Assembly (NCBI GenBank): GCA_963920765.1
Contig: OY987243.1
Span: 26,035,419-26,099,418 of the forward strand
Reading direction: 5' to 3'
DNA length: 64,000 nt
Source of the DNA: Ulota crispa
Taxonomy: Eukaryota; Streptophyta; Bryopsida; Orthotrichales; Orthotrichaceae
A program made the position numbers and the translations under genes. A model generated the notes under the pieces. The model was not told the DNA's origin and did not search any database. It saw only the letters and a program-made list of their open reading frames with translations. Below are positions 6,970 to 52,409 of this stretch, piece by piece (positions within the stretch are counted from its first letter, which is position 1; every line of letters begins with the position of its first letter).

Positions 6970-7208
6970 CCCCGGAGCGCCCAGCACAAGTTCATTGAAA
7001 TCCAAAATTTTTGAAACTAATACCAATCAAACTATCACTCAAAAGAGATTCACAAAAATTGATCGTATGGATTGGTAGTGAACATAGGTCCAAAGCTCCA
7101 AGGAAAAAGACAGGTCTTTTCACCGTACCATTGAAAAGATTATAACGGTCAAACATGGAAATTTTCAAAACCGAGAGGCCATATTTTGGCCCCTTGGGCG
7201 CTCAGGGG
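6970..7208. mobile_element. TTAA-flanked (piggyBac-like) MITE
   Basis: The ends are TTAA|CCCCGGAGCGCCCAGC on the left and, read inwards, TTAA|CCCCTGAGCGCCCAAGG on the right. TTAA target sites lie at 6966-6969 and 7209-7212. A second copy lies at about 46057-46295 and shares GATTCACAAAA, GTACCATTGAAAA, TTATAACG(G/A)TCAAACA and CCGAGAGGCCATATTTTGG. The 239-bp body has no coding capacity. Confidence 0.8.
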
Positions 7209-7736
7209 TTAAATGATGCATTTCCTCATTTCAAGCAACCAATGAGTAGATTCTACATTATCTCAAAAAGTAGTAGTAATCATGTGAACCTTCAAGGTGG
7301 TGCAGTTTTTAAACTTTCTTGTACTTTTAGTTTTTGTTTATGTTTTATTATTCATGTTCATTCCTTTGGCGCTCCTAGCCAATGAGAATGAGATTTTTGG
7401 TGAATCATTTGAATCAATGTTCATGGTGGACAGATTAGTTGTTGGACTTGTCAATGAAAAAGGAGCATGAGTTTTTGGAATACAAATGGGAGGCAAAAAA
7501 AATGAGCTCCAATGTTGCATCTCTCCTTGCAAATCCCAAGAACTAGTTTTCTTACTGTCACAATTGTCAAATTTAGAGTTATTGCATGGACAGTATTGAC
7601 CATTTTTTACTATTTTAGACACCCCTTCACTTTGATGAACAATGCTCAACAACTACAATAAGAACATATGGCACTTTTTTTTGGTGCAAGTTAGAACATC
7701 TTCAATGTTGCCTTGCAAGCATTTGATGTACTTTAA

Positions 7737-7820
7737 CCCTTAAATGCCAAAAGGGACAAAAATCATCTCTTGCAAATACACAGGCCCAGTGTATTGCGGT
7801 GATACCCCGGCGCTTAAGGG
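7737..7820. mobile_element. Very short TTAA-type element, probably relic
   Basis: Left: TTAA|CCCTTAAATGCCAAAAGGG with TTAA at 7733-7736. Right: GGCGCTTAAGGG followed by TTGA, one base from TTAA. If real, this is an 84-bp internally deleted member of the TTAA family. Confidence 0.45.
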
Positions 7821-7827
7821 TTGAGCA

Positions 7828-7990
7828 TGGATGATAAGTGCTTGAGGCCCCTCAAAACATTTTGATGGCACTCTATCTTGATGTGTCAAGCAATGGCCTT
7901 TCAAAATACTATTCATTCTAAATTTGGTGAGCTTCATCCTATATACCCCTTGGTGAATGGTCAAATGACTATTTATGAGACACGTTTGAA
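7828..7990 (+). repeat. Dispersed repeat (partner 44376-44535)
   Basis: Both loci share GGATGATAAGTGCTT, GTGTCAAGCAATGG, TTCAAAATA, GTGAGCTT, ATCCTATAT and CCCCTTGGTGAATG in the same order and orientation. A short frame is open in both (7878 onward and 44374 onward) with similar predicted peptides, but silent and replacement changes look equally common, so I read it as a repeated non-coding fragment or an old transposon coding remnant. Confidence 0.55.
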
Positions 7991-9915
7991 ACGCAAAGGT
8001 GGAGAACAAAATTTTTTAGGGCTTTTCAAAAATAAACGTTATCTCTTGAAGTGTCATGTTTGAAATGCAACAATGGGGATTCTCTTAGTACATCTCTTGC
8101 ACCATTTCAACAATCACAAAAAACACAAGCTTTGGAAAACAACGGGTTTGCAGAATTCTACTTTTGGCGCCTTCAAATTCAAAAATTTATTCTAGTGGAG
8201 GTGCTCTCACATCAGAAAATGTCTAATTACTTCTGTTGGATTACATAAATGTGGAATTCCGTTCTAGGATTTTTGATAGCCTACTCAATCCAAGCATGCC
8301 TCCCTTCCTATTGAAAGCACTTGCTCGGTTAATTTATGGAGTAAAGATGATGCGATTATTGAATTTTAGAACTATGAAACTTTTATGTCCTATTAATAAG
8401 AAAAGTATGTCATTTGCTCAACCAATTTTTTATTTTTTATTTTATTATTCATTTATCACTTTCATTAAAAAAAATGGAGATTATGTTGCTGAAATTACAG
8501 TGATTGATTGATTTGATCCCAATTGCAAACACACACCATGCACCACCTTCTCTCTTGGCATGAGCACAGTCACAAGCTGTACTGTACCTGTGCATACTCA
8601 AACGTCCTTAGATGACTTCTCTCAAAGCAAAGCCTCCTCTCATGCAATCCAAAGCCAACAATTCTAAACTCTATAAGTATTAAACTCCACATTTGCATAG
8701 GTCGATCTTGAATGCTAATTTGAGTTGCTTTTACTATCATAACAGAGCAATATCCAATTCAGCCTTTGCGAATTGGGTTAAAATCAAATATTTTGATGAA
8801 AATCAACTCCATGTTTTGTAACTCTTGCATGAAATCTTCCTCATAGATAGTCTAGACAAGTGACGAAACACAATACTTAGAGAAAAAAATCTATACTTTC
8901 TTTCTTTTATAACCAAATTGTCGTTGACTCCATCATTTCCAATATTTTACTCAAATCTCAAATTAGTCTACTTGTCTTGTACAAACCCCAAATTCGCTAA
9001 TTCTCAAGCAAGTTAGCTTTGGATCACATAGGCACTGTCTTGTGGATTTTAAATAATCAATATTTATGTGAACATCAGATTTTGGCACCCTGGAACTGAA
9101 GCTGGAGCTGGGGCTGCACATAATTCTCACACAATTGCTGAAAACAAGGGCACCCTCTATCAATCCGTTACACATCCACGGAATTTGTATTGTTGGGGGT
9201 AGGGCCCTTGGTTGTGAATTAAACGTTCACCCAATGCAATCGCTATACTCATCAAGAAGATCGTGCTTATGTTATCTTGTATTTCTCTTGATTGGTACTC
9301 TTCCAACATTTTTGCAAGGTTTATAAGGGTGCTTGGTATGTGCAAGATTCTCTCATGGTGACGACAATAACCGTGCTCTCTTGCGTTTTATTTTGCAATG
9401 TGTTAGTCAAAAAGCAATGCTTGCTTCCTTGGTTAGTACACTTTGCATCCTTACTCAAGCTTTGGGACACATAATCAACATTGTTGTCTTTATGGGGCTT
9501 CTTTAGGAGTGGTGTAGGGTTGCATATGTTCTCTTGTGCAATCATGAGCCAACAATATGGGGTCAAAGTTGGAATTTATGTAATAAGATGGAAAAACAAG
9601 TTTCAAAAGTACGTTTGAAACTTAGGATGACCAATATATTGTTGCATATTCCATGTTTTGGGTTTTATACAAATTAAAGGGATGGCTAGATCTTGAGAAT
9701 TTTTTTTGGTTTTTGAATTGCTTTTGTTGAGTGTCTCCCCCTATTATTAAAAAAATGAACTTGTATGTAGTTAAAATAGAGGCATCAAAATTCTCATTTA
9801 ATTTCAATTCTAGATTTGACAAGTCTTCAACTCAAGAGTTTTATCCTCAAGCAAAAGTTCCAACTCTAACGCTTACTATTAGGCTAGTTGGCAACTTCCT
9901 ACAATAAACATCATA
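7991..9915. other. About 1.9 kb of spacer, nothing recognised
   Basis: AT-rich sequence with scattered short frames on both strands (for example 8236-8511 plus, 9321-9566 minus). None has a family signature, and codon use does not stand out. No inverted or tandem structure was noticed. Confidence 0.5.
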
Positions 9916-10151
9916 TTAGGTAAATTGGGAAAAAAAGAGGTATCATCTTGTACTCCACCTTAATCTTACATACAATAAATGTATGCATAGCTATAGCTCA
10001 AAGTTAAAATATTTGAAGTTCTTGTAGGCAATCAGTGAGACTTCAATATTATACAAGAAATTGCATCTTTTTTTTTGTAATATGATGAATTTTACATAAT
10101 GACAAAAATAGTGAAAGTCCCAAAATGTACTCTTTTTCCCAATTTACCTAA
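9916..10151. mobile_element. Foldback MITE with TTAGGTAAATTGGGA ends
   Basis: Left end TTAGGTAAATTGGGAAAAAA and right end, read inwards, TTAGGTAAATTGGGAAAAAG: about 24 bp of near-perfect inverted repeat followed by AGAG and TAC-rich sequence. Inside the right arm GTCCCAAAATG resembles the small foldback at 146-263. The target duplication is unclear. No coding capacity in 236 bp. Confidence 0.65.
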
Positions 10152-10754
10152 CATGGTGTTAATAGTGCTTTAGACCACAACAAAGGAGTGCATTTGTTAC
10201 TTCTAGCCCAACACAGTCAAGGATTTGTGCAAGGCTATACACTACACCAATAATGATAATTATTGTTGACAACACTTATTAATAACTATAACACTAAATG
10301 AAAAATACTATAGATAATGTTGTCAATACTAAATTTCAACATAAATACCATTTATCAATTAAATTCTACCAAACATTCTAAATTAATTCCACGATAATCA
10401 AACTTGCACTAACACAATATACAACATCAACACTAGTTGTCAAGATGAACATTAATTGTTAATTAAATGAAAATTAGAGAGAGATAATTAAATGTAAAGA
10501 TAAGCAATACTATGAGTACCATAACACTAAATAGCATTATTAGTGTAATTGTCCAAGTGTTAGAGATGCAAAAAGTAGCATTCAACATAGGTAAAAAATA
10601 GCGTCCTATATGACCGCATGTTTTATGACTGGGTGTCCTAAATGACTATAGAACGACTATGATGTGACTAAAAAATGATTGACATTGAATAAGTTGTTCT
10701 TTAGTCATTCTTTTGAACGGTTCATCTGAAACTCTTCACAAAATTGTATTCTCC

Positions 10755-11395
10755 TAAATTCGTAAGTATAGTCGGGTATAGTAATCTTACAAATTTTTTC
10801 GCAGTAAAATTTCAGCCAATAGTTCAGCAACTTTAAGAAGCCATATCTTCCTTAAAAATTGTTCAATTTTGAAATTGCAAATTGCATTGGAATCACACAA
10901 AAGAGTACTACATGATTTGATAAAAAAAAACTGAAATTTTACAAATGATAAAAAAAAGTTTGGCTACTTCCTATATTGTGTCTACCATCTAGTACTTCCA
11001 CCTCTTGCAGAAATCACTGCTTAAATTGATTGGGCATACTTGTAATAAGAGTTTTTAGTTGCTCCATGGATACCTCATCCCATACTCTTTGAATCATGTG
11101 TATCATTTCTTGCTTGTTCTTTGGCCGTTGGTGGTGGCGTAGCTCAATCAAATTCAAGCAGTGATTTTGGCAAGAGGTGTAAGTACACTATATAGGAAGT
11201 AGCCCAATTTTTTTATCATTTATAAAATTTCAGGTTTTTTAAATCAAATCATGTAGTACCCTTCAGTAGTATTCCAAAACAATTTTTGGTTTCAAAAACG
11301 GACAATTTTTGAGGAAGTTATGGCCTTCGGAAGGTCCTAAAGTTGGCTGAAGTTTTATTGCAAAAAAATTCGTAAGTTTACGGTACCCAACATCC
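10755..11395. repeat. Foldback derived from the 3' end of a Tc1-like element
   Basis: The arms (about 10770-11030 and 11140-11390) are imperfect inverted copies. Matching words include TTACAAATTTTTTCGCAGTAA with TTACGAATTTTTTTGCAATAA, GTACTACATGATTTGAT on both, GGCTACTTCCTATAT with GGGCTACTTCCTATAT, and CTTGC(A/C)(G/A)AAATCACTGCTT. The centre encodes the tail of a Tc1-like transposase (separate entry). Confidence 0.65.
11014..11160 (-). pseudogene. Tc1-like transposase, C-terminal fragment
   Basis: A minus-strand frame of about 48 codons resembles the C-terminal part of Tc1/mariner transposases. LNLIEL at its start corresponds to the LNPIE box carrying the last catalytic acidic residue. It is followed by a basic stretch with MIQRVWDEVS and then LKTLITSMPNQFKQ before TGA, matching the usual W-x-x-(I/V)...LI-SMP-R tail. 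The N-terminal helix-turn-helix and the first two catalytic Asp are absent. It sits between the inverted arms at 10755-11395, so it is a deletion derivative. It differs from the transposase at 25.7-26.7 kb. Confidence 0.65.
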
Positions 11396-12959: not shown

Positions 12960-13275
12960 TTGAGTTTAGGGTTTAGCTCCGTGGACTTTGATTTGTTGGC
13001 TCCATGCTCTTTAGAGAGTTTGTTGACTATGTGCACTTGTCAATGTTTGTTGGCTCCGCGCTCTTCTTAGGTTTGCTTGCTTCGCGCTCTTCAATCTGAG
13101 GTTTGCTTGCTCCTCTCTTCTCTTAGATTTTCTTGCTCCGCGCTTTTCTCAAGTTTGTTTGCTTTGCTCACTTATCAAAGTTTGTTGACTCCGTGCACTT
13201 CTTTGGTTTTGTTGGCTCTATGTTCTTTGCATGTTTATTTGCTTTGTGCACTTGTCAAGGTTTGTTGACTTTGCA
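12960..13275 (+). repeat. Degenerate minisatellite, GTTTG(T/C)TGGCTCCG type
   Basis: About nine diverged units of roughly 30-40 bp, each with a TTTGTTGGCTCCG(T/C)GC or TTTGCTTGCTCCGCGC core followed by a (C/A)TCTTC or ACTTGTCAA tail. The array keeps a few short frames open by chance (12876-13070, 13077-13268), giving Leu/Ser/Cys-rich peptides that I do not regard as genes. Confidence 0.75.
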
Positions 13276-15860: not shown

Positions 15861-16264
15861 TGGGGAAATCACAAATAGGGGCATGAAAATGTAAAATATT
15901 ATAAATAGGGGCGCAATTTCAGAATAATTACAAATAGGGGCACAATTTCAAAAAAGTGTAAATTTTTCTAATGTTTTTTTGGATTTGGACATTGGTTGAT
16001 TTAGACACATCACATTGAATGTTAGCTAATTTCTAAAAAAATTAAAGGACTCTCCAAATCAAGCCTAAATCAAGAAACTTAGTAAAGTAGATGGCAATTT
16101 TTGGAAACTTTTAAATTTTTTGGAAGTTAGCTAACATTTAATGTAATGCATCTAATTCAACCAATGTCCAAACCAAAATTTTCTTACAAAAAATCACATT
16201 TAAAAAAAAATTGTGCCCCTATTTGTAATATTTTACGTTTTCATGGCCTATTTGTAATTTCCCC
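15861..16264. mobile_element. Foldback MITE with GGGGAAAT ends
   Basis: Left end TGGGGAAATCACAAATAGGG; right end read inwards TGGGGAAATTACAAATAGG. Arms continue through GTAAAATATTA(T/C)AAATAGGGGC and, further in, GACATTGG and TTAGCTAA blocks. ATTTTCT flanks both sides (ending at 15860; from 16265), giving a 7-bp and possibly 8-bp hAT-like duplication. A sub-repeat ATTACAAATAGGGGC occurs three times in the left arm. No coding capacity in 404 bp. Confidence 0.7.
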
Positions 16265-16958: not shown

Positions 16959-16962
16959 TTAA

Positions 16963-17250
16963 CCCCTAATGGACCACTTGTCCCTATGGGGGACAAATGG
17001 GATTTTGGGCATGTGCTTATGGCTAAAATACTTTGTGTAATTTTTTGAAATTTTTTATGGAAGATGGGAAATTCAACAATCTTTGTGGTCATCTAATTTT
17101 TTTCCTCATTCCAACATTTATTGAAAAAGTTAAAAATGAATTTATGAGAATTTTAGTTTGGCGGGCAGCCCAAAAACTTCTTTAAAAATTGTGTTTTTTT
17201 TAAATAAAAATTTGAGGTTAGTTCTTTAGACTTACGTGTATGTGGGAAAT
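16963..17250 (+). mobile_element. TTAA-type element, left part only
   Basis: TTAA (16959-16962) is followed by CCCCTAATGGACCACTTGTC. The next 280 bases match 53758 onward nearly base for base (GGGGGACAAATGGGATTTTGG, TTTATGGAAGATGGGAAATT, GCAGCCCAAAAACTT, GGTTAGTTCTTTAGACTTACG). Similarity stops at about 17250, and no matching right end is seen before the CACTA-like MITE at 17284. Confidence 0.6.
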
Positions 17251-17283
17251 TGTTGTTTGAAGCCGCAAATGTTAGCATCCAAA

Positions 17284-23310: not shown

Positions 23311-25487
23311 GTGCAGAACATGATGACAAAGATTGAAACTGTTCAATTGTTGTTGTTATTGGACTTTTTTACCAGAGCAAAGTCAATGAAGAACACAATG
23401 CTCACTCCATCTTCTAGCAAAACCAAAAGACATTGTTGATAGGGACGTAGATCTATAATGCACAACTCGGCAAAATTACTTGTCAAAGAATTTAGTAGGT
23501 CAACTCAACCTAAGCCTTCATGAATGTGTCTTGCATTTTTGACAATGAATTATAATGTATCATTGGAGGAACCTAAGGTTGAGCTACATGGTACTTCCTT
23601 AAGGAAGTGAAGTCCATAGCTCTATTTTTGTATTACTAGGTGTATAGTACATTTTTTGTTAATTAATAGCTTGATGTTTTTGTGCTCCATGCAAGTGAAA
23701 TCATTGCTTTAATGTACTTGCTACTAAATGTATGATATTCTTTTTGTTATTATGGCTTTTTGCATTTGCACGTTGAGAGCAAGCATAAAACATCTCCACT
23801 TGAATGCAAGTGTTTTATATTTTGAACTTCATGACATTGTTGTGGAGGGATTGCAAAGTAGTTTGCGTTGTACTTATTCTTTATGATTTTCACTTCAGGT
23901 GTGTGGTTCAAGATTTATGTTCTATGTTTTGCAATTCTTTTTGTTGGGAGCTAGGAGAGATGTTCAAAATCATTAGAGCTTGACAAAATTATATAACTAC
24001 AATGGATACAAACACAATGCTTGAAGGTTGCAGAGTAGACTACACTAGAAATGAAGTTTTTGGATTTGTGCTTCATTGTGCTTGTTTTTCAAATTTTTAA
24101 GAAAACTAGGAAACATAGAAATAATAGGTGTTGCTATCAACAAAATAAAGTCTTGAACACCCTAGAATTAAAGTCAAATACTGAACCCCTAAAACAATGA
24201 ACATGGTTCTTTTGGTAATATAGCGTCTTTTAGCAACATAGTATGAATGGATTTCTTTGCTCAAATGGGTTATTCTTTTTCTTTCTTTGAACTTTCTCAT
24301 AACATGATTTGAGAACTAGATTTAAAGCCCAAAAAAATTTACAACTTTTCACTATATGGTTCAAAAGTCAATGCATGATATGTAGTTTTTGTATATGTCA
24401 AACAACTAAATAACTTCTTTGTAGATTAAATTTTGATTTCTAATTTTTTGAAAATTGGTTCTTCAAATTTATTTATACATCCTAAACCCTAAATTATTCA
24501 ATTTAGAAAAATGAAGTGATAGTTGTGAGAAATTTTAAACTGCAGGTAGATTTGCAACCTAGTCAAATGTAGTGAAATACTTGTCTTTTGTATTTAAAAT
24601 TGTCTAAAACATCTTGTATAGATGTAAGAAATCCCAATTGAGCATCTTAGCAAATGAAGTTGGACTTCTCAACCCCAATGTTCATTTCTTTTTGAATTAT
24701 TAAAGAAAATCTTCAAAAAATGGTGAAAATATATAAAAGAGTCCAATGCTCCCATAATTTAGCATGGAAGTGCTTCCCACATTAAAAAACGCGTGAAAAA
24801 AGTTTTAGAAAGTTCACCTCTATGTTCAAAAGTTGTGGCCGTTTCTTCAAGTGTGCCTAATGTGACTGTTCCCTTCTAGGCATTAGTTACATTAGGCACA
24901 ATTGCACAAATTTGGTGAAATACTTGTCTTTTGTGTTTGAATTTTTTTTTTCAACCTTTCCATGGATGCAAAAAACCTAAACAAGCATCTTAACATCTGA
25001 AAATCAATATGCTAATGTCAACTTTTATTTTGAGGAGGTGGCTCATTATCTTAAATAACCCTAATGTGAGTAATGCTTCTCCTATGCATTAGTCACAGTA
25101 AACACAATTGCGCAAATCTACCAAGTAAAACACTTTCAAAAGTTTTTGGTTTTTATTATCTTTTTTTTATGTCCAAATATATTGTTAAGGTATAGAAAGT
25201 AGGACTATGGTTGTTTCCAATAGTTGGTGAAGTAGCCTAAAGTGTAAAAAGATACTTTGTTGATTATTATTATTTTTTAATTACTTTTAAGTTTTCTCAA
25301 CATCATTGACCTTTGAGTTATTAATTGAATTTTTATTAGTGTTTGTCTTTTTTTTGTAGTGTGTGCAGGATAAAAGAAATAGTATTCCAAAGTAAAAGAT
25401 TTTAAAAATAACACTTCTATGTATGTTGTTTATTTTTGTAACAACTTTTACATTTGTATCATTTTTTGCATGTTATAATTATGTATA
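23311..25487. other. Spacer with degenerate repeats and an eroded TTAA relic
   Basis: No gene. About 24180-24500 resembles the start of the TTAA element at 37274 (ACCCCTAAAACAATGAAC; TGGTTCAAAAGTCAATGCATGATATGTAG), but the TTAA site has decayed to CTGA. About 24540-25180 holds three diverged versions of a paragraph with GGTGAAATACTTGTCTTTTG and CATTAGT(T/C)ACA(T/G)TA(G/A)(G/A)CACAATTG. Confidence 0.4.
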
Positions 25488-26742
25488 CAGTGCCTTCCCA
25501 AAATGTTCAAACCGTGGCATACTTATCAAACATTCAATAATATATAAAAAAACAAATGCACAAACTTACAAATTTCAAATTTATTGAAGAAATACATGAA
25601 ATACTTTACATATGTATGAATAGAAACTTTAGAAATAGAGCTTCAAGATTAGTGATAAAGAAATCCAAAATGTACCTACCATTTGAACATTTTTGGAACT
25701 CCATGAAGTGAATCACTCAATATTTTGTCCACCTTCCTTTTGCTTCTATGACGGAAGAAATTTGGCGTAGCATGCTCTCTACAAGCCTCCTACAATCATT
25801 TGCACTGATAGAATAGATAATTTCATGTACTGAATTCCATAATTCAATCATTTTGCTTAGTGGCCAATTATATTGATTTAATGCCCGTTTGAGAATTGCC
25901 CACAAATGTTCTATTGGATTCAAGTCAGGCAATTGAGATGGCCAAGGCAAGGGAGTAAACTGTTGTTGAGAAAACCATTCCATAAGCAATTTAGTCGTAT
26001 GTACACGAGCATTGTCTTGCTAAAAAATAAGAGAAGAAGGGTTCAAATGAAACTTGGAAATTGTTTGATGCACGTTCTGCTCCAACGTCTCTCGGTATTG
26101 ATGTTGGTTTATGCGGCCTTCAACTTTGCACACCACTCCCGGTCCATGAATGGACATACTTCCCCAAATCATGATCCCTCCGCCACCATGTTTTATTGTT
26201 TGAGAAACAGTTCAAGATGGCGGTTGTTCTAAATCACGCATCCAACACCAAGACATTCCATCTAAACAAAAACGGTTAATCTTGGACTCATCAGAGAAGA
26301 TAACTTGACTCCAATCATCTGTAGTCCAATGTTGGTGTACTCTAGCAAATTCTAAACGATCCCTAATATTTTTCCTAGAAAGTTGAAGTTTCTTCTTTTT
26401 CACTTGTGCATTCAAACCATGTCTACAAAGAGAATGCCTTACTGTATTAGCAGTAGCACTCACTTGTACTCCAAAGTCTTTCTGTAACTGTTTAGAAGCA
26501 TCTACTGCAGTACCCAACTTTCCTCTAGTAACTTCTAATACACATGATCTCTCCATAGCTCTGGTCATCACACGTGGTCTACCTTTACATCCAAGCTTTG
26601 CATCTAGAACATGTGCACGTTGAATGTTATGAATGCTACCAAAACTCACCTACAAAAGCCTAGAAATTTCTCTCAATCCACATCCTCTCTGCAACATAGA
26701 AATGACATTCTCCCTTTTCTCAACCAACAATGCTCTGGGCAA
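25488..26742 (-). mobile_element. Tc1-like (DD34E) DNA transposon, inactive
   Basis: The distal end, beyond the transposase stop, reads TA|CAGTGCCTTCCCAAAATGTT, close to the CAGTGCCTT-type ends of Tc1 elements, with TA at 25486-25487. An inverted relic of it (TTTGAACATTTTTGGAAC) lies inside at about 25683-25702. The opposite terminal repeat was not found between 26742 and 27390, so that end is lost or too diverged, and the start given is only the edge of the coding region. See the transposase entry for the catalytic spacing. Confidence 0.75.
25717..26742 (-). pseudogene. Tc1-family DD34E transposase pseudogene
   Basis: Cut-and-paste transposase of the Tc1/mariner superfamily. The frame runs 342 codons without any indel, the usual length for Tc1 transposases. 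It shows an N-terminal helix-turn-helix region (GCGLREISRLL next to a stop), a second GRPR-type DNA-binding box (GCKGRPRVMTR), the first catalytic Asp in VIFSDESKI, the second in QDNARVH, and the Glu in LPDLNPIEHLW exactly 34 residues after it. Defects: the expected initiator position reads TTG (26742-26740), and there are three internal stops at 26652-26650 (TAG), 26214-26212 (TGA) and 26022-26020 (TAG). The TGA lies where family members usually have an Arg and the last TAG where they have Gln, as single C-to-T changes would give. No frameshift means recent decay. Confidence 0.9.
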
Positions 26743-29646: not shown

Positions 29647-30287
29647 CCCCTCAAGGCCCAAGGGGACCAAACTATCCCTCCTTGTTTATAATTTGGGATG
29701 CCTATATTTTCTTCATGATTAATTACAATGATTTTTTTTAAAGTTTGTGTTGAAGTCTTGTTTTAGTATCAAAAGTCTAATTTTGAAAATGACTAATTAT
29801 GATTTTCTATTAAAGATTTTGTGCAAGGATGTTCATAGCAAATCTTCACTTTCTAGTGTTGAGAGCTCTTGGAAATGAGCCTAAAGTACACTAGAACTTG
29901 GAGAAACAATCACATTAGAAACTTCATTTAAAAAGTTATAGAGTAGATTTTATGAAGCCGTAAATTGATTAGGGTTACACATGTTGTACTTTACATACTC
30001 ATATTTTTTTGGTATCCCCAATTTTAAATTTGAGATATGAAAAGAGGATTGAAAGACTTCAAATCACTTTCATAGTTTTAATACCCTCTTGATCAAATGT
30101 TATAATCTTTCAATCCATTACTGATATTGTTGTGTATTCTTTTCCTATGTGATGTCTAACCGTATCTAGTTTGAATTTATACAATTACAAAAAAAAATTA
30201 CATGATGTAAGTTATCAAATTGTTAACATTTTGTTCATTGAAGAACAGATTTTGAGATACTCAAGAAAGTGCATGGGCCTTGAGGGA
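29647..30287. mobile_element. TTAA-flanked (piggyBac-like) element, 641 bp
   Basis: Left TTAA|CCCCTCAAGGCCCAAGGGG; right read inwards TTAA|TCCCTCAAGGCCCATG. TTAA at 29643-29646 and 30288-30291. The TIR word CTCAAGG is a subfamily variant of CTAAATG. No coding content. Confidence 0.8.
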
Positions 30288-31237: not shown

Positions 31238-31240
31238 AAT

Positions 31241-31529
31241 CAGTACAAGAAAAAGGGTCATTATTGACTAAGGATTTTGACTACAAAAAAAATTAAGACA
31301 ATTAGACTTTCATGACTAGTATTTATGACCACATATAGTCATAAATAATTTAATTTATGATTGAACAATTTCATGTAGTCATAAATAATTTAATTTATGA
31401 TTACACGTAGTCATAAATTAAATTATTTATGACTACATGTGGTCATAAATACTAGTCACAAAAGCCTAGTTGTTTTAGTATTTTGGTAGTCAAAATCCTT
31501 AGTAAAAAATGGCCCTTTTTCTTGTAGTG
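31241..31529. mobile_element. CACTA-type MITE with TSD AAT
   Basis: Left end CAGTACAAGAAAAAGGGTCA; right end read inwards CACTACAAGAAAAAGGGCCA. CACTACAAGAAA is the classical plant CACTA/En-Spm terminus. AAT flanks both sides (31238-31240 and 31530-31532). The interior holds inverted TAGTCATAAAT/ATTTATGACTA units, so the element folds into a branched hairpin. No coding capacity. Confidence 0.9.
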
Positions 31530-31532
31530 AAT

Positions 31533-37269: not shown

Positions 37270-37273
37270 TTAA

Positions 37274-38196
37274 TCCCTAAAGCACTAAACATCCTTTTTT
37301 TGGCAACATAGCAATTTTGGGTAGCTCACTATTAATGGGGTTTTCATTTTTTTTTTTAGAATTTTCACACATGATGTGCCCAAGGAGTAGCTTTAAGGCC
37401 CAACAATTTTTATAGCTTTTGACTTCATGGTTCAAAAGTTATTGCATGATATGTAGATTTCTTTGCTCGGCAGGTAGCCAAAAACTTCTTTAAAAATCAC
37501 ATTTTTTGAAATTTTTTTTGAAATTGGTTCTTTAGATTTATATATACTTGGAAAGTTTTGAATCATTCCATTTTGGTCAATGAGATGAAAGTTATGAGGA
37601 GATTTTGTTTGCAGGCAGTTATGGATTCTCTACTCTAAAATAAGCTTTGAAGTCCATTGATTTACTCAATTTTCAATATTTTAGAAAAAAACAAAACCCA
37701 AGAATGTAGGTTGTTTATCACAACATTACAACCATTCGGATTGGAATTTTTCATTTCCATAATTAAGTTCTTAACAATTTAGTGGTTTGAATCATTCTCT
37801 TCTTCTTTTTACTTACAATTTTTTCCATGTGTTTTACAATTCCAAATGATTCGAATTTTTTCAAATATGTACCCAACTTGCTTTGGAGAACAAATCCAAA
37901 AAATCACAACCATTTTGGAGTTTTTTTCATACAAATATGACCTTGTGAAGTGGAGCTGCTCGGATTTTTGCAGAGACAAAAAATGGCTTTTTGTCAATTC
38001 AAACTCAAACATCTAACAGTATACATGGTGAAAACTCTTGAATTTTTTTTCACATCTTTTGATACTAGTGTAGTACAATATCTTACAACTACATCTCCAT
38101 ATGTAAAAAAGGTTTTTTTCTAAAATTTGGTAATTGTACTAGAAATGGCAATTTTGGAGCAGTTTTGGTGAAATATTGAGCTTAGTGCTTTAGGGG
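37274..38196. mobile_element. TTAA-flanked (piggyBac-like) element, 923 bp
   Basis: Left TTAA|TCCCTAAAGCACTAAAC; right read inwards TTAA|CCCCTAAAGCACTAAGC. TTAA at 37270-37273 and 38197-38200. Its interior (ACTCTAAAATAAGC, TGTTTATCACAACATTA, CTTAACAATTTAGTG) recurs in inverted order inside the element at 41240-43092, so the two share ancestry. No transposase motif. Confidence 0.8.
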
Positions 38197-40413: not shown

Positions 40414-40830
40414 TGCAAGACATCATAAACCAACAAATATCTAGTCACAAAATGTCAAATAATGGTCAACTTTGAGTGCTATCAACATCTTTTTAGCAAA
40501 TGATGATTCCAACATGTTTTTGTAGTTTTTTTCCCTTAGCCTTGTTTATAGCTACAAAGAGTTTCAACTTATTAAGGGGCTTATAATTACAAGGAGTTTC
40601 ATTTATTGAAGGAAGTTACATCATAAAAAAACAAAGACTTTGCAACCATATGACTATTTATAACACCCCTCAACTAAGTTGAAACTCTTCATAACTATAA
40701 GCAAGGCTTAGGAAAAAAGTTCCAAAAACAAATTGGAATCATCATTTACCAAAAATATGTTGATAACACCCAAAGTTGACCATTATTTGACATTTTGTGG
40801 CGAGATGTTTGTTGGTTTATGGTGTCTTGC
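40414..40830. mobile_element. Foldback MITE with GCAAGACA ends
   Basis: Left arm GCAAGACATCATAAACCAAC; right arm read inwards GCAAGACACCATAAACCAAC. Inverted similarity spans most of both arms (CACAAAATGTCAAATAATGG, AACATGTTTTTG against AAAAACAAATTGG, AGTTTCAACTTA with TAAGTTGAAACT), leaving a centre of about 80 bp. No target duplication identified; no coding capacity. Confidence 0.7.
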
Positions 40831-41181: not shown

Positions 41182-41239
41182 TTTGTTGGGTTACAAAAGG
41201 CAAATAAGCCAGTGTTGAAAAATAAGCCTCTATATTTAA

Positions 41240-43092
41240 CCCTTAAAGGCCCAAAGGGTGTTTTCACCAGAAATTGCCAAAATTTGTGTTTTTTCAATAT
41301 GTTGATGTGAACTTCAATTTGAAAACTATTTTTGAAACTTCAATTGTATAATATTGTAGTAAAATATTTTGTACTGAGTGAAAAAAATAGCCCATTTGAC
41401 CACACAAATTGAAAGATTATAGCATTTGAATTTAAAAACAAGTTTTTTTTTGTCCTTGCCCAAATGGGTCAGCAGACTTTGAGCCTATTTGGAGTCGAAT
41501 TTTTGGTTGGCATGATTTAGAGATTTTTTTTCCACTAATATCTAAATCTTGTAAGGTACACTCATGAAAGGTTTCAAGAGCAAGTCATGAATCTAGCTTA
41601 CTATAAATTGTCTTGCACTGTAAGGAGGTTAACTCCTATAGGACCAGGCCCTTTTCTCTGTGGAAAACATTGAAAATTGCCACTTTTGGGGGATGAAAGG
41701 AATGGTTTTTTTTTTTTTTTTTTTTTTTTTTTGAAATCTAACCGTAAGATCTTGCTCTAGACATTATGAGGTACTTGGGGAAAAAATGAGCTTATTCCAA
41801 ATGAAAAGGAGTGAGATATTTATATGTGAAGTGAAGATTTTTTTTTCTTTTTTGTACTGCCCAAAAACTTCAGAAGCCGTTGACCACTCCTTTATCAAAA
41901 AATTTGCTCTACGCAAAGTTGAGGTTTTTCTCTCTCATGTAGAAGACCAAGTTACGTATGTGTGGAGGAATTTTCAAATCAATTGGAACTATACAACACA
42001 TGGGAACAAATAGTAAGTAATAAGTAGAGAATGAGTCAAATCACTAAATTGTTAAGAATTTAATTATTAAAAGGAAAAATGCAAATCCCAACAGTTATAA
42101 TGTTGTGATAAACAATCTACATCCTTTGGTTTTTTTTTCCAAAATAATGAAAATTGAGTAAAATAAGGACTTCAAGCTTATTTTAGAGTAGAGAATCTAG
42201 AACTGCCCGCAAACAAAAACTCCTCATAACTTTCATCTCATCTATCAGAATCAAATGATTCAAATTTCCCCACATCTATATAAGTCTAAAGAACCTATTT
42301 CAGATTTTTATTTGAAAAATTCAAAATTTTTAAAGAAGTTTTTGGTTGCCCAAGGAGCAGCATTTTCCAGATTTTCATGCATAACTTCTTCAATAAATGT
42401 TGAAATGAAGAAAAAATTACATTCCCACATAGATCTTTGAATTTTTCACCTTCAATAAAAGTTTCAAAAAATCATGCAAAGTAGTTTAGCCATAGGTACA
42501 TGCCCAAAATCCCATTTGTCCCCTGAACGGATAATGGTCCTTTAGAATTGGCAATACATTAGTCATTCTTTTATGGTTTCTTGTGCACTGAGGACATCTT
42601 TTATTTGAAATTTGAATGGCAAAAAGTTAGAGACAAACATTTGGAATGCTTGAAAAATTATTGAAGAGCTTTGGTTTTATACATTGAAAGATAATAGGCC
42701 CTAAAGTTGGAAGAAAACATTTTTTCTTGAAATTGCCCAATCATAGTTAACAACTATTGACTCCCTTTAGAATGTGATGTGAGACCTCAATTTATTTTTG
42801 ATAGTTGTACACCATGTCTTTTTAGTTATATACTTGCCAAATTTCAAAAGTTGATGAGAGTTTAGCATAAGATTCTCTAAAGATGCCCAAACTGCCCAAG
42901 CTGCCCAAATTCTTTTGGGCAGCATAACTTTTGAACCAGGCATCAAATTGGGGAAAATATTACATTTTCACTTAGGGGATACATATTCACACTTTGTGTA
43001 ACAATTTTGAGAACATCCAATAAAAACTAACTCCATATGACCCTTCCCGAGTTCTCAAGTGGCTGTTAAACATACACTTGGGCCTTTAGGGG
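41240..43092. mobile_element. Large TTAA-flanked (piggyBac-like) composite, 1.85 kb
   Basis: Outer ends: TTAA|CCCTTAAAGGCCCAAAGGG left and TTAA|CCCCTAAAGGCCCAAG right read inwards; TTAA at 41236-41239 and 43093-43096. Inside, about 42340-42545 is a reverse-orientation copy of the 16963/53758 type (CCATAGGTACATGCCCAAAA, CATTTGTCCCC), and about 41985-42240 matches the element at 37274 inverted. It is therefore nested or built from two or more copies. A T-run of more than 20 bases lies at about 41706-41732. Confidence 0.65.
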
Positions 43093-43096
43093 TTAA

Positions 43097-45142: not shown

Positions 45143-45460
45143 GGAAAATTTTATGGATACCCCTAAAGTTTGTCATATTTGATAGATACCCATGGTTTTT
45201 TAGAAATTGCACAAATACCCTTGGACCATAATTTTCAAGCATTTGTTCTATTGTGCATGCCACTTCTTTCTCCCTTGTGTGCACATTGGTTCTTTTCTAT
45301 TCTATTGCACTCCTTGTTTTAACATTGGTCATGATGGAAGTAGTGTGCATAACAACACAAACGCCTCAAAATCATGATCCAAGGGTATTTGTGCAATTTT
45401 GAAAAACCAAGAATATCTATACAAAGATGGCAAACTTCTAGGGTATCCATAAAACTTTCC
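45143..45460. mobile_element. Foldback MITE with GGAAA(A/G)TTTTATGGATACCC ends
   Basis: Left GGAAAATTTTATGGATACCC; right read inwards GGAAAGTTTTATGGATACCC. Inner arms also pair (AAGTTTG(T/C)CAT, TTGCACAAATACCCTTGG with CCAAGGGTATTTGTGCAA). It abuts the next MITE with no spacer, so one inserted at or near the other's end. Confidence 0.75.
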
Positions 45461-45461
45461 C

Positions 45462-45551
45462 TTCATTACAAGGGATTTGGACCCCCAAAGGGTCTGTGAG
45501 TTTTTTGTTCCCGATGTTGGGAACCAGCCCCTATTGGTCGTTAGAAAAATT

Positions 45552-45588
<37 letters not shown>

Positions 45589-45771
45589 GAAAAAAGTAAG
45601 AATTTTTTTAATTTTTTTTTCAAAAATTAATTTCAAAAAAAATACAAGCTAACGTGGTTGATGTAATGACAACCTAGCCTGCAGCACACTACCCATGTAG
45701 AAGGTGTTCCCAAAGCTCCCATGGATTTGGGGGAAGGGGCCTCTTTGGGGGTCCAAATCCCTTGTAATGAA
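45462..45771. mobile_element. MITE with TTCATTACAAGGGATTTGG ends
   Basis: Left TTCATTACAAGGGATTTGGA and right read inwards TTCATTACAAGGGATTTGGA are identical for 20 bases and continue with CCCCCAAAG. The target duplication cannot be separated from the adjoining element. The interior has an A-run of about 28 bases at about 45553-45583 flanked by inverted AATTTTTTT/AAAAATTAA, perhaps partly a later insertion. Confidence 0.75.
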
Positions 45772-46056
45772 TTCTATCCATTTTTCCCTTACCTGTTTGC
45801 ACTATGGACAAGGTTTCTTTTTTGGCAAATTTTTTTGCTTATTTCTTACCTCAAATAATTATCACTAGCTAGCGCAACACTAAAACATATGATGGAAAAA
45901 TGGATGAAATAGCCAAATCCCTCCCCAAGCCAATACCTAATTTGGCTAACTTTGGGTGAACTTTACTGTTATTAGTATATTTTATGGATGTACGTGCACA
46001 TATTGACAATTCTGCCCAACTTTGTCCATTTTTTCCTTACCTACTTGCATTGGTAA

Positions 46057-46295
46057 TTCTTGAGCGCCTAGCACAAGTTCACTCAAATCTAGACCCTTTG
46101 GAACTCATTCCAATCAAACTATTACCTAAAAGAGATTCACAAAATTGACTGTGCCGATTGGTAGTGAACATAGGCCCGGAGCTCCAAAGAAAAGGACACA
46201 TCCTTTCACCGTACCATTGAAAAAATTATAACGATCAAACAAGGAAAATTTTCAAAACCGAGAGGCCATATTTTGGCCCCTTGGGCACTCACGGG
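46057..46295. mobile_element. TTAA-type MITE, second copy of the 6970 subfamily
   Basis: The body matches 6970-7208 along its whole length (GAGCGCC(T/C)AGCACAAGTTCA, GTACCATTGAAAA(A/G)ATTATAACG, CCGAGAGGCCATATTTTGG). The right end CCCGTGAGTGCCCAAGG (read inwards) abuts TTAA at 46296-46299; the left TTAA has decayed (GTAATTCTTGAGCGCC). That same TTAA is the left target site of the next element, so two members sit back to back. Confidence 0.75.
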
Positions 46296-46299
46296 TTAA

Positions 46300-47206
46300 C
46301 CCTTTAGAGACCATCAAACCATATTTTGGTTTGGGAGAGTAGTTTTTGGCCTATACAATAAAATCGTTCAACAATTTGGAAAATGGTCTTGAAGAATGCT
46401 TGTGATCAAAATAATTTTGCATCCAATCCAAGAAACAACAATGGAATCAGATATGTGAGTTGATAAATAATGGTGTTTATACATCATGGCCTCGAAATAC
46501 ATATCCATATTTGGTCAAAGATGGATCAAAGCAACAATAGAATACATCAAACATCCAAGAAGAATGCCACATTTCAATTGTGCAATCTTTAAAAAATTCA
46601 AATTGCTTAAGGAATATGCTTGTATTGTTTCTCTATATGGTAGTAGTACAATTGTAGCATTTGAGAATCCATTGAAATGATACTATCATTTTATTTATAA
46701 AAAAAGTCATCCTACATTTAAGGCCAATTCTTGATTGGTTTCATTGATTTGATTTTCTTTAACAATTATCAAATTTCATGTAGAATTGTTTTAGGGTAAC
46801 AAAGAAAGTGGGATTCTTGACCCTTTTTGTCCACTTAGTTACACCTTGTGATTGCTATTTTTGTCTATTTTGTGTGAAACTAGTCTTGTTGGAAAGGTGG
46901 GAAACCCTGCTTTTTAGAAATGTAGGGCTCTTCTCAACCAAAGCTTGCTTGAAGCGTTAACATTCAAAACCACACAAGCATGAAAAATTAAAGAGTTTCC
47001 ATATATCGCTCACTCAATCATTATAATATTTCACCTCCAACGGTAGATCTAGTTGAAATTTTGATACATTATAACAAACAAGGTGTTCTTCACATTTTTA
47101 CAGCTGGATTATCCAAATTGGGTCCATATTTGATTCAAATGCACATTTAATTTTATTGCCCCAGTTTCTAGTGGATTTTGGGAAAATGTGTGTGGTCTTT
47201 AAAGGG
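46300..47206. mobile_element. TTAA-flanked (piggyBac-like) element, 907 bp
   Basis: Left TTAA|CCCTTTAGAGACCATC; right read inwards TTAA|CCCTTTAAAGACCACAC. TTAA at 46296-46299 (shared with the preceding element) and 47207-47210. The 46486-46680 frame inside has no transposase signature. Confidence 0.8.
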
Positions 47207-47210
47207 TTAA

Positions 47211-48544
47211 GTGCGGGTCGCTCTACCCTTGTAAAATGGAAAAAAATCTACCAGCAAAAGTACAAAAAATGAACCCTTCCTGGAATCCGGAGGAGGAGAT
47301 GAGCAACGCTGATGCGCGAGCCAGGAAGGCGCGGAGATGGAACAGCAGCGAGGACGACGGTCGACGGGGACGCCGCAGCAGCAGCCAATTCTCATGAAAA
47401 TTTGGGAAAGGTGGCCCCCCCTTGTAAGTTTAGCATTTGGGTAATCCTGTAGTATGGCTCATATGCCAATTTTGAAAAGAAGGGGAAAGTATTAATAACT
47501 AATCATTTGATTATTCTTCGTCGAATCAATTTTCATTCTTTGGGGGGAGGTGGCGTCTACAACGACGAATGGGTTCGATGAAACGGTGGTGAAATTGTAT
47601 CGCCGTTGTTTGTTTGATCTTGGCGTACATTCTTTTTTTTAAAATTTGGTCTAAGCGGTAAGAGGCTAATAAACCGTCCAGGCTCTAAAACCGCCCACCT
47701 TCTCAAAGGTATTTTGTTTATACATGTTATTTTTCATAGATTTAACAATATACAAGCAGTGTACATTTGAAGAGGTGGGTGGTTTTAGATCCTTGTGTCA
47801 TTTCAACTTCAAAATTTCATAACTAATTCCACAAAGTTTCAAAAAATATGAAACAGCATGGGCTAAATGCCAATTCCTCTTATCTTCCAAGGATAATTTA
47901 CAAAAAAGTATTTCAAAAAGTTTCACCTCTCCATAATTCAATTTCAGCCCTTAGATGCTTGGTTTACAAGCCTCCTCCTTTAGATAACTATGGTAAGAGG
48001 TTAGGGCATCTTCAATTTAGACTCAACATCAGGGCTCGACAATGGCATTAAGTGAGCTTTGTTGCATAGCCTTGACCAACACAAGCAGCAAACCGGTTCA
48101 TCTGACCCAATGCACACAAGTTGTAAGAACTGTAAACTTTATTTCTATTAAACTTGTGTTAGGCTTTTATGACAAAATCTTTATTTCCAACTTGCAAAGT
48201 AGTAATCATTTCTCTGACAACAGTATATAAAGTAATCTGAAGGACTCTTGAAGATTGCTAAAACTTCCAGAGGTGGGTTAGGTTTTGATGTCTCCTTTAA
48301 GACAAGATCTCATTTCTAGGGTGCATTGGACTAGGTTTGCAATTCTCAAGCTAGGGCCCACCATGACAGTGTTGTTACAAAGTCGATAAACTTGCTAGAT
48401 TGAAAATGTTGTAAGCTCATTCAAATCCTTGAGTCCTCAATTGCCCAATTGCTCCAAGTTTTCAAATCCCCCAAGTCCCAAATCCTCCAAATCCCAAGTC
48501 CCCAAATGGTTCCCACTAAAAGCATCATCAACCCAAGATAGGGA
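47211..48544. other. Spacer with one GC-rich patch
   Basis: About 47270-47395 is GC-rich (GGAGGAGGAGATGAGC, GAGGACGACGGTCGACGGGG), and a minus-strand frame there (47207-47395) gives an Arg/Cys-rich peptide of no known family. The remainder is AT-rich; about 48435-48525 has a CCCAA(G/A)T(C/T)C-type pyrimidine-rich run that recurs at 48955-49030. No gene recognised. Confidence 0.4.
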
Positions 48545-48945
48545 ATGAGACTGTAACATCATTTCTATTGGTGGGGCCAGTTGTGTGTGAGAATGAGGTA
48601 CCTTTAGGGTTCCAACGCAACCACAACAATGTACAACCAAGAGATGGTCTTGTCAAAACAACATCCTTGGACAACAAATTTGCATGGTTTCCAATGCCCT
48701 GGGACTTCCATTGCATTTACTGCCAAAATGAGATGTTGCGCGTAGTAGCTTGCAACTTCTATGCAACAACTTGCAAGTGCTCCCAAGTGACTCTCTCATG
48801 TGCATGGATATGCAGCTAGAGTTGCGACAAAAGCGGAAGAATATATCCAATGAACAAGATTGCAAAATCAAGAGACAGGGAGCAATGCAAAAGCGGCCAG
48901 TTCTCAGTCCCAAACTAGGTGTATGATTTGATGATGCTCTAAGCC
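48545..48945 (+). repeat. Dispersed repeat, uninterrupted copy (partner 5912-6622)
   Basis: Matches the partner without its internal insert of about 230 bp: AACCACAAC(A/-)ATG follows TTTAGGGTTCC directly. Ends GTGTATGATTTGATGATGC against GTGTATGCATTGATGATGC. The frames on both strands here are not supported as genes. Confidence 0.6.
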
Positions 48946-49149
48946 CCATTGTCTACAATTCTCCCATTCTTCCACTCTCCCAATCCCCCAAGTTCCTAAT
49001 TTTTCCAAGTTCCCAATGCTCCCAAGTTCCATGAAGTAATCAAACTCAAGGTTTAAAGCTTCACCCTAGGGGTAGTCACTCCACCTCATTCTCAATTCAT
49101 AAAAAATGGGGATGTGGCAATCTCTTCTTGGTTTGTGGAGGCCCCATTT

Positions 49150-49515
49150 TATGAAGATTGAGAAGTTTTTTTCTGCACCTCTAGAGGAGAAGAATCCAAG
49201 CCCAAAAAGGCATTTAACAAAGGAGAAGAATAGGCATGAAGAAGTTTTTGTACATGAAATTTTTACCAATGCATGCCTCTTTTTCATCTTATTCTCACTC
49301 TTCTTGTAGTTGGAAACCTTGATTAAATACATGAATGCAACTTGATTTCTTATTACATCACTATTTTTTAGGTAAATTCATTTCCATTCTTAATTGCTCA
49401 CAAAAGGAGAGTCACACCTTTTCCATGGAGACAAGCTTCCATTCGCTTCTATTTCAAATCCACAACTATTCATTCTTCATAAAAATTTCATTATTGGAGA
49501 AGGTGTGACTACCCC
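49150..49515 (+). repeat. Dispersed repeat, copy 2 (partner 655-940 plus 2300-2341)
   Basis: Same-orientation copy of the block near the left end of the window, without the extra 1.37 kb. Here the CCACAACTATTCATTCTTCATA segment runs straight into AAATTTCATTATTGGAGAAGG and GTGTGACTACCCC. In the other copy these are separated by the region carrying the palindrome. Confidence 0.55.
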
Positions 49516-50223
49516 TACTATGTCTAAAGCAATTGAGGGTTTTAAGCCTCAACAATTTCTTTGTAAAATCTAATATTCGTTCTTGATTTTCTTGAACCCA
49601 TGTTGCCTTAAAAATTTTAAGGTTTCTTACAGTAGGTATAAGGTTGGTTTCTTGTCTTCTTGTTTCCTTCATTCTTAATTTGAATGACCATTGCTTTGCA
49701 CCTCACAATGTGCAAAATGCTTTTTGGTTCTCTCCACGTGGTTCTCTCATGAGACAAAACAATTTTTCACGATGATAACTCCAATTTGTCTTGAAAAAAT
49801 GGTTGGTTTTGCAAGAAATCAAAGAGTTTGAGTTTCTTTATTTCCTAAGATCTTTGAAATTGCCTAACGTTTGGGAATAGTGGCAGTCGGTATATTGTGA
49901 ATTGGTGAAAATTGCAAAAAATAACATAATTGAAATTTGAAACTATATGATAAAAATTAATTTTTATTTTCCAAAACATCTATCAATGGTATAAAACTAT
50001 AAATAGAGGACTATCCAAGGTTTTATGTGTAAAACTGGTTGAACATGAAAAATGAAGGATGCTTGCTAGTGAAACTTAATTAGCTCATCACCAAACAATG
50101 GTTACTAGTTCCCATTCATTTGGTAAATACATGCATGGAGCACATGCTAGAAATTTTCGGTGTTAAAGAAAGTAGGAATTTGCTTCCAAAATTGGATTTT
50201 TCAAAATTTAAGCAAAAATTGCG
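49516..50223. other. Spacer, nothing recognised
   Basis: AT-rich, no gene or structured repeat noticed. The minus frame 49466-49672 has no recognised family. Confidence 0.45.
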
Positions 50224-50227
50224 TTAA

Positions 50228-51174
50228 CCCCTTAAAGACCAGCTGTCCCCTTGGGGGATAATTGGGGTTTTGAGCATGTACTTACAACTAAACCACTTTG
50301 TGGGACTTTTTGAAACTTTTATAGAAGATGGGGAATTCAAAGACTTGTGTGGGCATCTCATGTTTTCTTCATTCTAACATTTATTGAAGAAGTTACGCAT
50401 GAGTTTTTTTTTAAACAAGGGAGGGTGGGGAGCCCAAAACTTCTTTAAAGTTGCATTTATTTGAAATAAAAATATGAAACTAGTTCTTTAGATTTACATA
50501 TGTGTGGGAAGATTTTACTCATTCAATTTTGATTGATGAGATGAAAGTTATGAGAAGTTTTAGGTTGCTGGTAAGTATGGAGCTCCCAAACCTCATTCCT
50601 TTTACACCTTGTAAAATTTGGTGCTTTACTTTTTTGAGTTCTTTGTATATTTATTTTTTGACTTTCTTTTCCAAGTTGTAGTAAACCAAGATTCCTTGGT
50701 TTTCACCATTTGGATCGAAGTAATTTAGATTTCTCAATTTTACATAAATTCTCCAATTTTGCCTAGTGTCTATGCAAATTTTATGGCCTTATGGCAAATG
50801 CAAGATTTTACAAAGTATGATTCACACCTCCAATTCATTTGAAAATTTCCCACACTTACCTAACTTAGTCTTCTACATGGAAAAATAAACCTTGACTTTG
50901 TATAGAACAATTCTTTTGATATAGGAGTGGTCAAAGGCGTCTAAAAGTATGGACAATAAGGATTTTTTTTTTTTTCACTTCAAAAGTCAATATCTTAGTC
51001 CTCTACATCTAAAATGAGCTGATTTTTTTCCCAAAAGTACCTCCCATAGTATAGGGCAAAATCTTATGAATGGATTTTCAAGAAAAACTTTTTTTCCTAA
51101 CTTTCTATTCATTCCCCCAAAAGTGGCAATTTTTAGGGACTTTCACAAAAAGAAAAGGGCTTGGGCCTATAGGA
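50228..51174. mobile_element. TTAA-flanked (piggyBac-like) element, 947 bp
   Basis: Left TTAA|CCCCTTAAAGACCAGC; right read inwards TTAA|TCCTATAGGCCCAAGC. TTAA at 50224-50227 and 51175-51178. The interior from the left matches 16963 and 53758 (TTCTTTAGATTTACATATGTGTGGGAA, GATGAGATGAAAGTTATGAGA). The right TIR is more diverged than in other members, but the TTAA pair is intact. Confidence 0.7.
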
Positions 51175-51178
51175 TTAA

Positions 51179-51642
51179 ATCCTCCAGCATTTTTCGGACT
51201 ATATTCTTTGTCATTTAAAACTAAACATAGTGGTGAAATGGAATTGAGTTGGTACATGTAGAGTTGAGATGTCGGTATGGTGTTAAAGCCCCCTTAAAGC
51301 TCGTTTTACAGTAGCACTTTTGGCCGTTTTTGAACCTAAAATCATCTCAATCCTCAGTAGGCTTTTAATTGGTTGGAAGTTAAAAATAGCACCTTGGGTT
51401 TTTCATTACGAGTCAAGGCTAAAATTTTACTTTTGGGATTTTGATATTTGAATGCGCAAAGTTTTTATGGCCACAACTTCAAGAATTAGGTCCACTATGA
51501 ACTGAAAAGCCACCTATAGCTTTGGAGACATTGTTACTTTTCATCAAAAATCATAACACTCTGGATAACCATGTACTGTGATGTATGACATTTCCTGAGC
51601 TAATCAACGATGTAGAACGGAATTGAGATCTTAGTGGCTCTA
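51179..51642. other. Spacer between two TTAA elements, nothing recognised
   Basis: No gene or repeat structure noticed. The spacing is short, so elements of this family are packed closely here. Confidence 0.4.
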
Positions 51643-51646
51643 TTAA

Positions 51647-52409
51647 CCCGTAAAGGACCAAAGATCCCAATATGACCAAAGGGGGTGCTTGGAGGTCTGA
51701 AAGTATATAAAAGAGGTATTTTTAGCTCAAATTTTGGTCTGCCACTCAAGTTTAATTGGAGTTGTTAGTTCAAGAAAAGTTTTTGATTGGCTTGTTGTTC
51801 GTTGAAGCGCCTCCTTTGCTCTAGATTCTACATGGAATATGGAAAATATTTTATTTTTTTAACAATTAGGAGAAGAATGTCTTTGGGCAAACGAAGGGAG
51901 CGGCTTAGAGAGCGGATGGGATGGGTGCTCTCATGTCTCATATTGTACAAGGGAGAAGTTTGGTGATGTGTCACTTTTTTTTTTCTTGATTTGGGCAAGG
52001 TTTTTATAGCTCTAAAGTAAGGAGCTAGTGGAATCTAGCTACTTTGAGTGACCATATCTTTTGGAGTTCTTTTCCATTTGTGAAGTTTTTTTTCCATCAA
52101 GTATAGCAAGACACAATCTCATGGGATTAGCCATTAGGTAAATCTAATTTTTGAGAAAATATTACATAAAGTTCAAAATCCATATTATGAACTATTGCCC
52201 AAATTGGAAAACATGAGATTCTCAACGGTGGGGATTTTACAAATTTACTTGGATTATCAAATTGGTTTAAAACATTTAGTTTGTAGTTGGGTATAGAATG
52301 AACGGTTTGAATTGTGTGATTACTTGTTCAACTTTCCAAAAACTTGGGGAATGTGTTGAAAGTTTCATGTTAGAGGTATGCTAAATTTTCTTAGCAAGAC
52401 GCATAGGGG
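51647..52409. mobile_element. TTAA-flanked (piggyBac-like) element, 763 bp
   Basis: Left TTAA|CCCGTAAAGGACCAAAG; right read inwards TTAA|CCCCTATGCGTC. TTAA at 51643-51646 and 52410-52413. The terminal match is shorter than in the cleanest copies, so this is an older member. No coding motif. Confidence 0.6.

Follow-up and report, generated by a model that had tools for sequence, protein, structure and literature searches.

The 64,000-nucleotide stretch analysed here (C2:26035419-26099418, called the window below, from a genome of 274.8 Mb in 157 contigs) carries a series of TTAA-flanked elements, which are very probably non-autonomous piggyBac transposons, or miniature inverted-repeat transposable elements (MITEs), mobilised by piggyBac-superfamily transposases encoded elsewhere in the genome. 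An earlier note on the window had listed eight such elements with CCC-type ends, and at all eight coordinate pairs we read TTAA directly outside CCC- or TCC-starting ends. The elements are given below with the inner member of a nested pair and three incomplete copies; no strand is assigned to any of them.

TTAA-flanked elements in the window

6970..7208: 239-bp TTAA-flanked element; ends CCCCGGAGCGCCCAG / CCCCTGAGCGCCCAA; relatives in loci L013 and L017
27395..28273: 879-bp TTAA-flanked MITE; ends CCCCTAAATGCCCAAG, matching at 14/14; 1,960 first-look candidates (loose count)
29647..30287: 641-bp TTAA-flanked element; ends matching at 13/14
37274..38196: 923-bp TTAA-flanked MITE; ends YCCCTAAAGCACTA, 13/14; 79.6% similar to family member L067 over 452 bp
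41240..43092: outer MITE, about 940 bp minus the insert; ends CCCYTAAAGGCCCA; interrupted by the inner element
41633..42545: inner MITE of the CCCCTAAAGGACCA family, sitting at TTAA 41629-41632; right GGGTTAA lost
46300..47206: 907-bp TTAA-flanked MITE; ends CCCTTTARAGACCA; L080:2503-3409 is 90.2% identical over 907 bp
50228..51174: 947-bp TTAA-flanked MITE, its ends diverged; an element in L023, itself bounded by TTAA, is 81.9% similar over 923 bp
51647..52409: 763-bp TTAA-flanked element; CCC ends with a weak end match, 7/14 (counted by eye)
16963..17249: truncated MITE with a single TTAA end remaining, recognised by similarity to sampled elements
53758..54204: truncated MITE with a single TTAA end remaining, recognised by similarity to sampled elements
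46059..46295: eroded relative of the 239-bp element, adjoining the 46300 element (merged similarity interval 46059-47206; end at 46281-46299)

The window was scanned for TTAA-flanked YCC ends, with a pairing threshold of at least 9/14 identity. Six of the eight elements (6970, 27395, 29647, 37274, 41240 and 46300) had ends paired at 13/14 or better, and 100 first-order Markov simulations gave a mean of 0.14 pairs per window and a maximum of 2. The ends of 50228 and 51647 match poorly and fail the scan; the idea that these two were false elements was dropped, both being repeats bounded at those TTAA. The terminal repeats of 14-16 bp begin CCCYT, the 51647 family having its weak end match, and agree with the piggyBac hallmark, terminal repeats of 12-19 bp containing CC[C/T]T (PMC2872659).

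Relatives elsewhere in the genome were found for seven of the eight elements. For 29647..30287 there was no relative among the sampled TTAA elements, a genome-wide copy search was not made, and the element rests on its 13/14 ends. Five eroded copies had also been proposed; those at 16963, 53758 and 46057 are related to sampled TTAA elements, the one at 24180 is so in part (24262-24549), and no relative among them was found for 7737. The eight elements sum to 7,152 bp, or 11.2% of the window, and similarity to TTAA elements from outside the window covers 10.8% (the bases are not identical throughout), in keeping with the previous estimate of more than 10 percent. They do not form the single family first described; several families share a common end motif.

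The interval 41240-43092, previously taken as one element, is bounded by TTAA at its outer ends and proved to be a nested pair. A separate element of about 917 bp with a family of its own (41629-42545) lies inside an outer element of another family. Among 39 other scored copies of the inner family, 29 have both boundaries within 2 bases of the expected places. Uninterrupted relatives of the outer element occur at L010 and L016, where a single TTAA is read through at the insertion point. Since the right end of the inner copy is lost, only its left TTAA is intact.

Genome copies and end motifs

Copies recovered from the genome without the use of their ends mostly stop at TTAA, as the earlier note had expected. 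Of 29 copies fetched by interior similarity, 23 have strict TTAA at the left end, 23 at the right end and 21 at both. Once the flanks are aligned, the TTAA positions hold 1.3-1.8 bits each and every other column 0.45 or less. For the 27395 family, starts lie within 2 bases of a TTAA at 30 of 38 other places, ends at 31 and both at 24; this count leaves out five rows (one copy split into two halves, a pair of places with 72-74% identity and one short piece). The 51647-52409 query, tested in the same way, carried 100 bp of flank per side, and among its 39 other places (88-92% identity) 32 starts, 29 ends and 22 pairs of boundaries fall within 2 bases of TTAA. Twenty-nine copies of one family differ from the column majority by a median of 5.7%, and pairwise by 9.7%.

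Some insertions also have uninterrupted paralogous sites, the empty sites for which a search had been proposed. The joined flanks of 6970-7208 align, minus the element, to L016 (73.7%) and L080 (69.3%), both of which read a different tetramer there. L055 has a 932-bp element inserted into a second MITE at a TTAA; the majority of the comparators listed have TCAA in that position, the pattern expected if insertion needs TTAA, and the insertion in L079 has an uninterrupted counterpart in L068 with TTAA at the site. Joined flanks of other loci (L024, L013, L002 and L070, for example) aligned to MITE-internal repeats and were not scored as empty sites. Boundaries and uninterrupted sites together indicate a TTAA target-site duplication.

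The end motifs themselves are abundant. The 19-base motif TTAACCCCTAAAGGCCCAA, with at most 1 mismatch, was found at 6,102 forward and 6,102 reverse places, against 0 + 0 for the reversed-pattern control; so precise an agreement is unusual and may come from the way places were counted, the part listed is mostly of one strand, and no pair statistics were drawn from it. The exact 18-base motif TTAACCCTTTARNGACCA of the 46300 type occurs at 963 + 988 places, again against 0 + 0 for the reversed control. Its first 100 listed places include 25 neighbouring pairs within 5 kb where 4.3 would be expected under uniform spacing. Of these pairs 23 converge as element ends do (1 is tandem and 1 diverging), and 18 of the 23 span 885-919 bp. 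First-look candidates for four element queries numbered 10,458 (the query with the inner element of the nested pair), 3,076, 1,960 and 765, all of them loose counts.

Two further observations concern the ends. Converging CCCTTTARNGACCA ends stand 2.25-3.5 kb apart at C1:9809838-9813345, 4291808-4294059 and 6916814-6919118, and may delimit longer, transposase-bearing members. At six loci (L015, L020, L028, L031, L052 and L061) one end has a short hairpin inside the terminal repeat (e.g. GTCCCCTCGGGGGAC) and the opposite end has a different conserved subterminal stretch, possibly a left/right asymmetry of recognition.

piggyBac transposases and their element ends

The piggyBac transposase domain PF13843 gave 120 matches in the genome (best E 1.3e-73), drawn from 116 scored of 528 first-look candidates, and 110 of the 120 contain stop codons. 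Searched against PDB with phmmer, the domain of L044 matched piggyBat (E 4.3e-24) and Trichoplusia ni piggyBac (E 8.4e-21). Its three aspartates align, by positions counted along the alignment, to D268, D346 and D447 of the T. ni protein, which we take to be the catalytic residues, and the DDE_Tnp_1_7 core with its three aspartates is recognised. Across 12 sampled loci the triad positions hold D in 10, 7 and 11, and seven of the loci have all three; a C-terminal cysteine motif, as expected of the cysteine-rich domain, is present in nine (it was not recognised in L046, L047 and L050). The 12 domains share 30-81% of residues, with a median of 38%. A tblastn search of the window with their translations (E<=0.01) found no piggyBac transposase piece, in line with the statement that the window holds no autonomous copy. 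Stop-free domain matches, each in two pieces, were seen at C1:1180709-1181995 and C8:19570986-19572215, and are candidate intact or domesticated genes.

Some of these transposases lie inside elements with TTAA-adjacent CCCYT ends, which supports the assignment to piggyBac that had been made from the window. One transposase-bearing family keeps TTAA next to CCCYTCATYGCC at both boundaries in three copies. Its copy on contig C3, about 5.0 kb long with the transposase inside, agrees with those on C10 and C8 up to a left (5') boundary of TTAA and CCCCTCATCGCC, as does a 75% copy on C11, and up to a right (3') boundary of TTAA and CCCTTCATTGCC. Three places (C6:414474-414525, C1:14302947-14302982 and C2:21259101-21259140) share only the terminal 36-52 bp of this element and are possibly short derivatives of it. 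A second element, on C4, contains a stop-free domain match and ends at TTAA next to CCCTTTAGCGACCA, a boundary of the 46300 type common to three other copies. Ends of the MITE kind thus accompany a transposase on both sides in the C3 element and on the 3' side in the C4 element.

Downstream of the 12 transposases, read for 1.5 kb at three loci and about 2.7 kb at nine (L039 and L048 being one family), a TTAA-adjacent CCCY or CCCTA end was found at eight, in every case facing outward. Two ends fall outside this motif, an inward-facing CCCAA end in L090 and, in L085, an end next to TAAA. For the match at C1 3376081-3377187, an outward CCCTTTAAGGACCA end lies 2.5 kb downstream. At L041 the downstream end is exactly the main MITE end CCCCTAAAGGCCCAA, and similarity to MITE ends, at about 79-90%, extends over roughly the terminal 57 bp. 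Past the TTAA of L041 the sequence is that of a 27395-type MITE interior, which marks this end as an insertion boundary. At L041/L086 the exact main-MITE 3' end was seen on the 3' side only. The earlier note had called for a transposase gene with the same terminal repeats; the C3 element has motif ends and L041 the exact 3' end, and none was read with both main MITE ends. Among the transposase loci read we found no working mobiliser with those ends. Pairing of TTAA ends inside the 12 transposase loci found nothing, and blast of transposase loci against MITE loci gave only short L042 matches and a 276-bp L047/L023 match outside the MITE.

Alternatives, host and relatives

Several observations count against a piggyBac origin of the MITEs. 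Eight of the 29 copies lack strict TTAA on one or both sides, a few of these ends having been misplaced by the script. Four of the 12 transposases have no TTAA-adjacent CCC motif end within the downstream reach read, and the 12 best domains had no MITE-like end (<=5 mismatches) to a distance of 1.5 kb; the 3' ends identified on further reading are some 1.4-2.5 kb away from the domain. None of the transposase elements read has CCCCTAAAGGCCCAA at both ends, L041 having been read on its 3' side only. The final 813 bp of L041 also form a repeat in their own right (L092, 72.6% similar), so that its end may be that of an adjacent non-autonomous element. In the stop-free C4 copy the third aspartate position reads N and the frame breaks shortly afterwards; it is therefore not a working copy, and its want of a full triad slightly lowers our confidence. 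Lastly, a TA duplication inside a preferred TTAA would look the same as a TTAA duplication by sequence alone.

This last point is what a Tc1/mariner origin would exploit, with Stowaway-like elements that duplicate TA, end in ACCCC...GGGGT and prefer T-TA-A. The sequence pattern it predicts is identical, and a Tc1-like transposase relic lies inside the window (25717-26649). Against it, in 28 flanks the outer T and A show about the same conservation as the inner pair TA, a search around the relic for TA-flanked inverted ends (>=14/20) found none, and the transposases that sit between such ends are piggyBac transposases; it is this association that decides between TA and TTAA, and we hold a Tc1/mariner origin to be highly improbable. 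TTAA duplication is not unique to piggyBac either, being known also from Kolobok and Sola3. The MITEs might belong to one of these superfamilies, with the piggyBac transposases as unrelated neighbours in the genome, a reading that gains from the lack of any element read with both main MITE ends plus a transposase. It is nevertheless unlikely, though less so than the preceding one, given that the CCC[C/T]T ends and 14-16 bp terminal repeats fit the hallmark in PMC2872659, that the motif recurs in transposase-bearing piggyBac elements (in one family on both sides), that the downstream end of one transposase equals the MITE end, and that a second transposase family has a 46300-type end. The sequence read contained neither copies bounded as a rule elsewhere than at TTAA nor an autonomous relative with a transposase of another superfamily, the outcomes named beforehand as contrary to piggyBac; Kolobok and Sola transposases were not searched for. 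An effect of chance or composition was also considered. CCCTAAA is the plant telomere repeat, so that telomere-like repeats could yield TTAA-CCC matches, and a pattern with two CCC blocks had 12 places in the reversed control against 55 real ones. The absence of any reversed-control place for the 19- and 18-base motifs, the stopping of homologous copies at TTAA and the 0.14 pairs of the Markov control refute this explanation.

For the piggyBac reading, the mechanism would be cut-and-paste insertion of MITEs, mostly of 240-950 bp, at TTAA sites by DDD transposases of the piggyBac superfamily. These enzymes, or extinct relatives, may have moved them in trans by recognising the CCCYT ends, and excision was presumably seamless. 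The burst is probably mostly over, to judge from the median 5.7% divergence of 29 copies of one family and the stop codons found in all but ten of the 120 matches to the transposase domain.

GT34 glycosyltransferase pieces and a Copia retrotransposon in the window fit the plant-type genome proposed earlier. The retrotransposon (55747-59329, minus strand) has broken frames and matches to RVT_2, gag pre-integrase, SH3 and, weakly, integrase. A radial-spoke head gene, in several pieces, is present on contig C7. Such a gene means flagellated cells and hence no flowering plant, which suggests that the host has flagellated cells and is not a flowering plant; it is likely a land plant rather than a streptophyte alga. 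Control genomes for the PF13843 and radial-spoke searches gave 0/14, to which we attach little weight as the composition of the controls is not shown. The window further contains the Tc1-like relic mentioned above (25717-26649, minus strand, with DDE_3 and HTH_Tnp_Tc3_2 pieces) and the long foldbacks 10771-11391, 40415-40830, 31240-31530, 15879-16248, 45143-45460 and 45462-45771. No TTAA-CCC ends were found on these six, which belong to other classes of foldback or MITE. Scanning the window against Rfam and for tRNAs gave no hits.

The piggyBac group is best known from animals. T. ni piggyBac and Myotis piggyBat target TTAA and have CCC ends, and Wuneng and Microuli are elements of rice. The animal transposases (PDB 6x67, 9c0f) have the same DDD catalytic core as those described here; the best phmmer E of 4e-24 makes them distant relatives, and the C3 element here is about 5.0 kb. 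Wuneng and Microuli are MITEs with TTAA duplications according to PMC2872659, a likeness by description. The same source describes coral AmiPB elements and CMITEs that are alike in TTAA duplication and CCCTT-type ends (the AmiPB2 right end, reverse-complemented, reads CCCTTTATGGACC and a further AmiPB left end CCCTTAGAGACCTA, compared with CCCTTTARNGACC here), and also in that the MITEs share ends, and little of the interior, with a transposase element (PMC2872659). Unlike the coral CMITEs of about 100 bp (PMC2872659), the elements here measure 240-950 bp, have thousands of end-motif places and reside in a plant-type genome.

For plants, the literature speaks of 'occasional occurrences in plant genomes'; the piggyBac label is given for 'fungi, plants' (PMC8086355), and a MITE review names piggyBac among the angiosperm MITE superfamilies (PMC10004981). 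In Ceratopteris, 1,230 copies totalling 122,417 bp bear the label (PMC6890710), a tiny share under the same superfamily name, whereas about 11% of the window resembles such elements. In the accessible portions of the open-licence literature we found no paper describing a non-seed plant whose genome is rich in piggyBac MITEs. The superfamily is already known; its abundance and host setting are unusual.

The 12 sampled domains, sharing a median of 38% of residues, may represent many piggyBac lineages. It appears somewhat more probable than the contrary that a flowerless land plant has been colonised long-term by many such lineages, giving one of the largest plant piggyBac MITE expansions known; were the window representative, this would come to about one tenth of the genome. 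If this is true, piggyBac would be a major rather than a marginal transposon superfamily of early-diverging land plants. The 120 transposase matches and thousands of MITE ends suggest that piggyBac can make up a large part of a plant genome, which prompts one to ask whether the superfamily is an old resident or has arrived horizontally more than once, and the plant-native transposases are candidates for piggyBac-type tools.

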